Part shown: positions 34,701 to 37,700 of the stretch, piece after piece
Numbering within the stretch: position 1 is the first letter of the stretch
Layout of the letters: each line of letters begins with the position of its first letter
Source of the DNA: Haliclystus octoradiatus
Lineage: Eukaryota > Cnidaria > Staurozoa > Stauromedusae > Haliclystidae
Reading direction: 5' to 3'
Length of the DNA stretch: 64,000 nucleotides
Assembly (NCBI GenBank): GCA_916610825.1
Contig: OU744454.1
Span: forward strand, 3,681,821 to 3,745,820
Made by a program: the position numbers and the translations under genes
Notes under the pieces: generated by a model
The model's input: the letters and a program-made list of their open reading frames with translations, nothing else
What the model was told of the DNA's origin: nothing
The model's database searches: none

Positions 34701-37700
34701 TACATTAACACACAGTCTAACCATCCACCAACTATACTAAAACAAGTTCCAACTTCAATAAACCAAAGAATTTCAGATTTATCTTCTAACAACACAATGT
34801 TTTTGAAAAGCAAACACACATACGCTGATGCATTAAGAGCAAGCGGCCATGAAGCAAATCTTTCTTACCAACCACGCACTACAACATCAAACAGTAACAG
34901 AAGAAAAAGAACCAGAAAAATCATATGGTTCAATCCGCCTTACAATAAGAGCGCTAAAATAAACATTGGCCGATCATTTTTAAATTTAATCAAAAAACAT
35001 TTTCCTAAATCAAATAAACTGAGCAAGATATTTAACCATAACACAATTAAAGTGAGTTATAGCTGTACTAACAACATGGACAAGATTCTCAAAAGTCATA
35101 ACAACAAAATAACCAATGATGAAAATAACGCCACAGCCACACCTTGCAATTGCAGGGACAGAGATACTTGCCCACTCGAAAATAGGTGCCAATTAAAAGG
35201 TATCATCTACAAGGCTACAGTGACAACACCAGCCGACGAAGAGGGAAAGAGCTATATTGGTTTGACAGAAGACACATTCAAAGCACGTTACACACAACAC
35301 AAATCCACATTTAAACATAGAAAATACAGCAGCAGCACGCAATTGTCAAAGCATATTTGGGACTTAAAAGACAGCAACAGCCAGTACAAAATCAAATGGT
35401 CAACTATTGCAAATGCAAAGCCATACAATAATATATCTAAAAAAATGTCATCTATGTTTATTGGAAAAATTATATGCTCAAAAGAGCCATTACTTAATAA
35501 AAAATCTGAACTAATCTCAAAATGCCGTCACGAGAATAAATTTTATTTATCTAATTTTAAAGAAACTAAAACATAATTTAACTTAACTGCTGTAATAGGA
35601 AACAATTTCATTTATCTAACACCTTAATTACCAAAACGGAACAATAGCACCATTGTATGTTAAGACAACTATTGTATTAAAACAATAACGCGCTGCGGCA
35701 CTTATGATAGCATGTAATAGGAGTCACCATGTATATTTTTCATTGAGTATCAACTGTCTGATGATCGCACACTGCGTGAAACTATAGTAACAGAAATTAA
35801 GAATGTGTTTTCTTTGACTCAGTCACCATCCTTATGTATTACAGCTCTGCCAATGTTTAATCGGTATTGAGCACTATCACATCTGACGATAGATAAATCT
35901 ATCTTTATTATTATATTATTATTATTATTATTATTATTATTATTATTATTATTATTATTATTATTATTATTATTATTATTATTATTATTATTATTATTAT
36001 TATTATTATTATTATTATTATTATTATTATTATTATTATTATTATTATTATTATTATTATTATATTGTGGTTTCGTTCTAGACAAAAAACATGCTTACAT
36101 TCCTTCTGAATAGAACTGATCTTTATGACAACATAATTTACTATATATAAACACAGAATCATATGATTTGGAATTAAACAATAATCACTGCATGTAAGCG
36201 TGTATTTATTCTCAGATGATAATTGCAAATCATATGATTCTGTACTATATATATATATATATTGTTAATTAATAATGTAATATAAGGTAAAACACATATA
36301 CGTGAAAGTGCTCAATGTTTGTTAAAACAGAGCATAATATAAAATTGAGACAAAGATGAGGCAAAGCCTTTCCGTAACTCCAAGTTTCACGTGTTTATTT
36401 CACGATCATCAGACCGTATTACTTGTCTTCGCCTCATCTTTGTCTCAATTTTATATATTGTTAATTAATAATAATAATATATGGCAAAAGAGTAAAAAAA
36501 TACATATTCTTTACTGTTGACTCTTTCACCATATATTATTATTATTTAACGCTTTGTCAAATGAAGACATAGAGTACTATATTATCTGCTACAGTCAAAG
36601 CTGTTATAACGGTCACCTCTATACAGCGGCTACCGTCTATGTGGTCACTCTTGCAATATCTAAAATAGTATTTTCTATTGAATCAAACCTGTATATAAAG
36701 GCCACCTGTCTATAGTGGTCAATTTATCTACTTCTAGTATATGGCTGTTATAAACAGGTTTCACTGTATTAGATAAACATAAATTTTATTGTATTGTTAA
36801 TTATAATAAAAGGACTACACATTCATAATTATGAACAATTGCGATTATATTTAGCTCTGTCAAATAACATTGAGCACTATTTTTTGCTATTAGATAATAT
36901 CTAACATAGTATTGTTATCTATGTTGTAATAAAATATCAGCTCTATTCAGGTGAAAACAAAAGTTATTCTGAAGTGACTACATCACATCAAGTAGATTTT
37001 AAGCTGTAAATATCATTAAAATTAGCATAATCTGCTGTTGAAGGCATGAAAATAACATACAGGCTCGTTCTTGAGTTCAAAAGATTATAAATAATTTCTT
37101 CTGTATTTGTGTGATATCTTTCTGATGAAAAGAGACAATCAGGGATGGTACCAGCAAAGGGATTCGGGGCTACACAGCCCCTTGATTGGGAAGAAAAATG
37201 TTGATACTGTAGTCTGGAAAATTTTTGGTACTTCGTTTAACTTATGTGTTTTTTCCAAAAATTTCCATCAGAGGGGAGTTAGCCCCCTCACCGGGGATAT
37301 CATGGTACCACCACTGGAATTATCCATAGAATTGCAGCATATAGCAGTAAATTTGGGGATTAAAATCACTCTGAAAAAAGACACAAACAAAATGTGAAAA
37401 GTTCTCAAACTTTAAATAGCATATTTTTCATAAAAATCTTTTCATCAAGCTTTCATGAAATTTTCAATAAAATGGAGTCAGCTAACGTTATTACGACATC
37501 ACATAACTTCCATTTTATAATGGGAATCCTTCACAATCGTCTTCTTTTTAATCAACATGTTTATGTGTTCCAAATTTCAGTTTTGATCTGTGAATCACAA
37601 CCTCTTTCAAAGAATCTCCTTTTTAAAACAAGAAAGGTAAGATGACATACATAATAAAAATATATTATTTGCTGAGTAGAATTACTCTACCGTTCCATTA

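Follow-up and report, generated by a model that had tools for sequence, protein, structure and literature searches.

Type I hammerhead ribozymes have a conserved core, CUGANGA ... GAAA ... UH, and three stems, of which stem I is open. Minimal hammerheads of this type were reportedly described in Penelope-like elements by Cervera and de la Pena in 2014 and by Luense, Weinberg and Breaker in 2017. The anatomy of Penelope elements, as far as it is set out in the parts of PMC3846280 used here, includes pseudo-LTRs (pLTRs), an inverted pLTR, an optional tail and AT-rich targets. Internal start sites of reverse transcription are described in the corresponding parts of PMC11167929, a 2024 study of the anole element PAc. 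According to the same sections, unprocessed RNA is the main substrate of the anole Penelope, mutation of the PAc hammerhead left insertion in vitro unchanged, and none of the reads had an end at the cut. A 2020 review (PMC7761336), in its passages on minimal Penelope hammerheads, reports that they self-cleave as dimers and calls their activity and role in vivo "still a mystery". Hammerheads in Penelope pseudo-LTRs are already known; the new part of the present analysis is the genomic footprint of their cut, of which no mention was found in the literature surveyed, and which Cervera 2014 or Luense 2017 may contain.

The window, the whole stretch of 64,000 nucleotides of Haliclystus octoradiatus DNA analysed here, carries such a hammerhead in a copy of a repeated element. 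In this copy the hammerhead starts 178 nt past the ORF stop codon (35574-35576), and the (TAT)n array passes straight into 34470, the truncation point, which bears out the original prediction of a ribozyme just after the ORF of a 5'-truncated copy. The CxxCLxEK block is absent from the window copy and present in the aligned relatives that cover that part of the protein. In another locus, L017, two 734-codon frames lie between pseudo-LTRs with a spacing of 2,525 bp; in the tandem units, 176 nt separate the cut site from the first in-frame ATG downstream of it. The YRDDG and GIY/YIG/R/E/N motifs are visible by eye in the 734-aa frame; we take these names to denote the motifs of reverse transcriptase (RT) and of the GIY-YIG endonuclease. 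The element protein had no match in Pfam, NCBIfam, PDB sequences or viral contigs, two structure predictions of it were poor, one PDB fold search gave no match, and its alignment with an RVT_1-positive RT was weak (E 0.013 at a probability of 3.4%). On the minus strand of the window, a long ORF at 49496-51613 matches RVT_1, a reverse transcriptase domain, at E 2.4e-32 and is probably a separate LINE-type element.

The anatomy of the element agrees with that published for Penelope: pseudo-LTRs, tandem units, an inverted head-to-head pLTR, an optional tail and an AT-rich target were all found. A head-to-head pair is present in 14 of 20 fetched loci, which were chosen partly for such pairs, and 3 of 30 right arms continue into a tandem unit. 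On either side of the inverted pairs lies (ATT)n or (TA)n or, in L023, what looks like a short target duplication. Several other family copies likewise lie inside long (ATT)n arrays. The Penelope-like label of the original prediction is supported as the name of the carrier's retrotransposon family by the element anatomy and by the motifs seen by eye, while the domain libraries lend it no match. Further repeats in the window are an inverted repeat centred on CACAGAATCATATGATT at 36149-36247 and scattered tandem repeats of the GTTCATGAAC type at 37969-46251.

Every core base of the hammerhead can be read in the sequence: CTGATGA at 35758-35764 and GAA at 35778-35780, followed by A35781. Stem I is formed by CTGT 35754-35757 and ACAG 35790-35793, 4 bp without a mismatch, and stem III by ACT 35781-35783 and AGT 35786-35788, 3 bp with the 2-nt loop AT. 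The GTA triplet at 35787-35789 puts the predicted cut before 35790. In all of this the original prediction had read the sequence correctly. Stem II, which it had given as 4 bp, has only three pairs (C35766-G35776, G35767-C35775 and C35768-G35774, CGC/GCG), since the mismatch U35765.U35777 at its base had been misread as a pair. The segment 35754-35793 has the core and the three stems of a type I hammerhead, with stem I open and a 3-bp stem II over U.U. A descriptor of the full set of features, composed after the motif had been seen, finds one site in the window, at 35754-35793, and none in 200 dinucleotide shuffles; the bare core pattern occurs 4 times in the window against 1.94 expected, a non-significant excess.

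The claim that the sequence is fully consistent with activity has to be qualified on two points: stem II stands on a U.U mismatch, and stem III is too tight for the monomer to be stable, so that dimers are expected to be the active form. In computed folds the hammerhead form of the monomer is disfavoured, at -1.5 kcal/mol, or -2.7 if stem III is left out, compared with -5.6 kcal/mol. The dimeric hammerhead fold, through the palindrome ACUAUAGU, reaches -16.0 kcal/mol against -17.4 for the best cofold. A monomer that is disfavoured and a dimer that is allowed agree with the reported dimeric behaviour of Penelope hammerheads, and a short self-complementary stem III is what one would expect of Penelope hammerheads that cleave as dimers.

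Table. Features of the hammerhead-bearing element and of related pieces in the window
Feature	Position	Strand	Evidence
Tailed arm of a same-family mini-element, 5' end 28206 = hammerhead cut site	28091..28206	-	
Inverted partner arm, 5' end by eye also the cut site; BLAST places it 8 bases further, through partly matching bases	28254..28308	+	
(TAT)560 flanking microsatellite, 1.68 kb, probable insertion target	32787..34469	+	
5'-truncated ORF, RT end (YRDDG) and GIY-YIG-like C-terminal domain	34470..35576	+	ORF, aligned relatives
Pseudo-LTR and tail; elsewhere in the genome it recurs between the ORFs of a tandem array, 2,525-bp period	35577..35918	+	
Main 5'-end hot spot, probably RNA 5' end	35742..35744	+	16/78 right arms, 13/38 left arms, 43 pattern matches (35743)
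Minimal type I hammerhead	35754..35793	+	sequence, covariation, other-subfamily covariance model
Self-complementary ACTATAGT, presumed intermolecular stem III of dimeric hammerhead	35781..35788	+	
Predicted cut, also second 5'-end hot spot of genomic copies	35789..35790	+	copy ends
Site where most of the tail-less (inverted) arms read stop at their 3' side; probable internal RT start site 1	35838..35841	+	15/18 left arms found in 30 3-kb loci
(TTA)53 flanking microsatellite, first bases merging with the tail	35905..36063	+	
Site where most of the tailed arms read stop at their 3' side; probable internal RT start site 2	35911..35918	+	24/30 right arms
Second hammerhead, other subfamily, stem I with mismatch	36368..36420	-	17-sequence model, 43.6 bits, E 2.8e-9
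Arm of second subfamily, 5' end 36517 = cut site	36468..36517	-	

The 262-Mb genome gave 1189 candidate copies of 35581-35850, and the 40 of them that were scored are all 98-100% identical. Twenty loci were fetched around near-identical copies, partly chosen for head-to-head pairs, and later loci were added. The fetched loci also contain related subfamilies, whose proteins are mostly about 55-77% identical and whose hammerhead stems differ. Covariation was examined in 23 aligned subfamily sequences. Stem I is paired in 97.8% of its cells, a percentage inflated, as are the others from this set, by the relatedness of the sequences and by their preselection in a scan requiring at least 8 of 10 pairs; two-sided changes occur at 3 of its 4 pairs. 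Pairs 2-4 of stem II hold, with two-sided changes at two of the three, and stem III varies too little to be judged.

Three of the five measures of covariation applied to these sequences stand out and two do not. Compensated cells number 23 against 6.9 +/- 1.8 in shuffles, and the covariation score is 0.295 against 0.165. The number of pairs changed on both sides (6 against 4.2, reached by 36 of 500 shuffles) and the number of pair types (8 against 9.3, reached by 488 of 500) are unremarkable. At the base of stem II, 19 of the 23 sequences have U.U, which is thus usual in the family. The stem III segment is self-complementary, with G-U allowed, in 20 of the 23, save for the central base of 9-mers, and the triplet at the cut is GUA or GUU among family sequences. 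Within the window's own subfamily, the right arms that span the hammerhead with at most 8 mismatches (n=48) keep the same base at each position in at least 45 cases.

The covariance-model search proposed with the original prediction gave a divided answer. Rfam 15, at default and permissive thresholds, had no hammerhead match in the window, in 13 of the 20 loci or in short stretches around three hammerheads; every hammerhead of the minimal Penelope kind tried here was missed. A model of 17 sequences from related subfamilies, none of them from that of the window, recovers 35754-35793 at 55.8 bits (E 1.4e-12), with two more matches in the window at E below 1e-4. In 48 loci it has 114 matches at E up to 0.01, a figure that is not a copy number, as several loci overlap and the training sequences are included. 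Since the model of other subfamilies matches strongly, the Rfam misses would be a limit of its models for minimal variants. Judged from sequence, 35754-35793 is a real hammerhead, of type I and of the minimal Penelope kind, because the core is present, the stems covary, a model without its own subfamily matches it and it lies in a pseudo-LTR.

Other hammerheads are scattered over the window and the loci. The second hammerhead of the table sits within an inverted mini-element (about 36331-36463), and inverted mini-element arms probably explain weak MIR408-like Rfam matches. Rearranged inverted pieces at 62250-63110 belong to another hammerhead subfamily, with the core changed to CAGATGA at 62916-62966 (minus strand). 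L014:3296-3347, L046:1140-1191 and L071:303-354 hold a hammerhead of another kind, whose stem III segment is 12 nt long and whose cut site is GUC (GUU in L071). Its L014 copy, the only one tried in Rfam, has no match there and has a stem I of 7 pairs; the GUC-type hammerhead of these three loci is possibly a retrozyme.

The positions at which genomic copies begin were examined in a sample of right arms that was not selected by 5' end. A 28-mer at 35828 occurs 150 times in the genome, and the 100 occurrences listed provided 78 arms. Of these, 22 extend beyond 35691 or beyond the available sequence, and the other 56 have their start within 35691-35828, including 11 at 35745-35753 and 22 within 35754-35828. 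Most ends lie elsewhere than at the cut, with 16 right arms at 35742-35744 against 7 at 35788-35792. Those seven, all from the 22 starts within 35754-35828, are nevertheless more than a flat spread over 75 positions would give (P 4e-4), as are the four that start exactly at 35790 (P 2e-4); for both P values the structure had fixed the position beforehand, the choice of the 75-base frame came later, and the copies include a few segmental duplicates. Left arms show the same tendency: among 38 of them, 13 start at 35742-35744, 3 at 35788-35792 and 2 more at 35793-35794.

Exact patterns searched in the whole genome, which differ in length from one start position to another, gave 13 matches for a start at 35790, 2 at 35793, 6 at 35797, 7 at 35788 and 43 at 35743. 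At two of the control positions, part of the count belongs to elements that start at the cut: at least 3 of the 7 at 35788 are partner arms of elements that start at 35790, and 1 of the 6 at 35797 is the window's 28.2-kb arm, a cut-site start plus a substitution. The A before the cut is kept in 214 genome copies of the 32-mer and absent in 13. These 13 matches reduce to nine distinct elements, since L030 has a point mutation and an intact hammerhead, a triplicated locus accounts for three of the matches, and two more are arms of a single element. L049, L077, L100 and the 28.2-kb remnant of the window bring the number of distinct elements with a start at the cut to at least 13. The aligner had put L032 at 35786 and L077 at 35789, where bases ahead of ACAG match by chance. 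Two of the elements, L049 and L100, form near-perfect hairpins. Six (L032, L033, L034, L039, L040 and the one at 28.2 kb in the window) have the cut as the start of both arms, with a spacer of 7 to 47 bases, and L029, L031 and L038 combine an arm from the cut with a partner from 35742 or 35743. Splicing was considered as an origin of the 35790 ends and rejected, because neither the donor (GT at 35787-35788) nor the acceptor positions (AG ends at 35787 and 35793) yield 35790.

A second subfamily (ACAGTAAAG...) has 1024 copies that keep the A before the cut against 46 exact copies in which it is replaced, by T in 20, G in 14 and C in 12. A GUG triplet should not cleave, so G before the cut indicates truncation; point variants could account for some of the T or C. 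The four of the 46 that were read, over about 41 bases upstream, all show truncation precisely at ACAG, one of them (L114) being a hairpin that turns at the cut. The control, 4 nt downstream of the cut, gave 21, including 7 in one cluster. Loop II and stem III differ in this subfamily, yet the exact end is identical. The footprint covers these two subfamilies; the further ones in the loci have too few copies and share downstream sequence.

Genomic copies that begin exactly at the predicted cut in two subfamilies make it likely that the hammerhead cuts in living cells. The two classes of ends fit two templates, an RNA from the probable transcription start (35742-35744) and an RNA freed by the hammerhead (35790). 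The whole explanation, in which a Penelope element carries a minimal type I hammerhead in its pseudo-LTR (5' UTR) and both its cleaved and its uncleaved RNA serve as templates, is given a probability of about 80%. A further reading, that the insertions record hammerhead cleavage in vivo, that the ratio of the end classes gives the cleaved fraction in the germ line, and that the ribozyme is the 5'-end processor of the element RNA, is held to be reasonably probable.

The alternative that fares best, unlikely as it is, grants that the hammerhead is conserved and may cut in vitro and denies it any role in insertion templates; the 35790 ends would then be produced where local RNA structure makes RT fall off. 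It draws on the anole Penelope, whose hammerhead mutants insert normally and whose reads do not start at the cut (parts of PMC11167929), and on the scatter of starts across the whole pseudo-LTR. An RT stalled at folded stem I should, however, halt at 35794, before the stem, and not four bases inside it, and a start at 35793 was found 2 times against 13 at 35790. The recurrence of the exact end in a subfamily with another loop II and stem III also speaks against fall-off.

A still less probable alternative regards the head-to-head pairs as fold-backs of a single, self-primed cDNA, with the turn set by local palindromes and not by cleavage. Self-priming has been proposed for rotifer Penelope elements (in the portion of PMC3846280 drawn on here). 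L064, L087 and L103 are nearly perfect hairpins, with turns at about 35800, 35803 or 35810, and the turns of L049, L100 and L114, which were included among the cut-site starts, lie no more than a few bases from the cut. The arms, however, usually differ in their 3' site (35838-35841 against 35911-35918), the junction of a 35790 arm with a 35742/35743 arm in L029, L031 and L038 is impossible from one fold-back, and the gathering of turns at the cut site is left unexplained. That the resemblance to a hammerhead is due to chance, as the lack of an Rfam match and the frequency expected of the core pattern alone (1.94 per window) might suggest, is extremely improbable, since covariation, the other-subfamily model and the shuffles speak strongly against it.

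If the two-template explanation is right, transcription would start near 35742-35743, which would place the hammerhead at about +12 to +51 of the RNA. Two hammerheads, in tandem units or in two RNAs, may pair through the palindromic ACUAUAGU and would then cut after A35789, leaving a 5'-OH RNA that begins with ACAG. From cut AT-rich target DNA, RT would initiate inside the RNA at 35838-35841 and 35911-35918 and copy to the 5' end of whichever template it held. Uncleaved RNA would give inserts from 35742-35744 and cleaved RNA inserts from 35790, and head-to-head joining of two such cDNAs would produce the inverted pairs. A majority of uncleaved templates agrees with the finding that unprocessed RNA is the main substrate in the anole.

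The genome itself thus provides ends at the hammerhead cut in two subfamilies. The footprint test requires assembled genomes only and can be repeated in other Penelope-bearing species. The R2 HDV-like ribozyme, as described in the relevant part of PMC3774820, is similar in that its cut coincides with the 5' junction of the element; it differs in being another ribozyme, with its cut at the 28S gene junction. HHR_Amex2 of the axolotl retrozymes shares the U.U at the base of stem II and cleaves better as a dimer, and, unlike the present hammerhead, it belongs to a non-autonomous tandem repeat outside a Penelope pseudo-LTR (PMC7229834, in the sections on this ribozyme). In PAc, Poseidon of Anolis carolinensis, a pLTR hammerhead likewise precedes internal RT start sites, by which the "tail" is defined, and the target is AT-rich. 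The PAc hammerhead cut in vitro in the presence of its protein, and the cut lies 26 bp inside the ORF, compared with 176 nt before the first in-frame ATG here (all from the parts of PMC11167929 used above). The closest relatives are the minimal Penelope hammerheads, with which the present one shares, by the portions of PMC6155905 and PMC7761336 that deal with them, the location in a pseudo-LTR, a short or missing stem III, tandem units and the expectation of self-cleavage as a dimer. Set beside these review descriptions, what distinguishes the hammerhead described here is the U.U in 19 of 23 sequences, GUA or GUU at the cut and the footprint that the cut has left in the genome.
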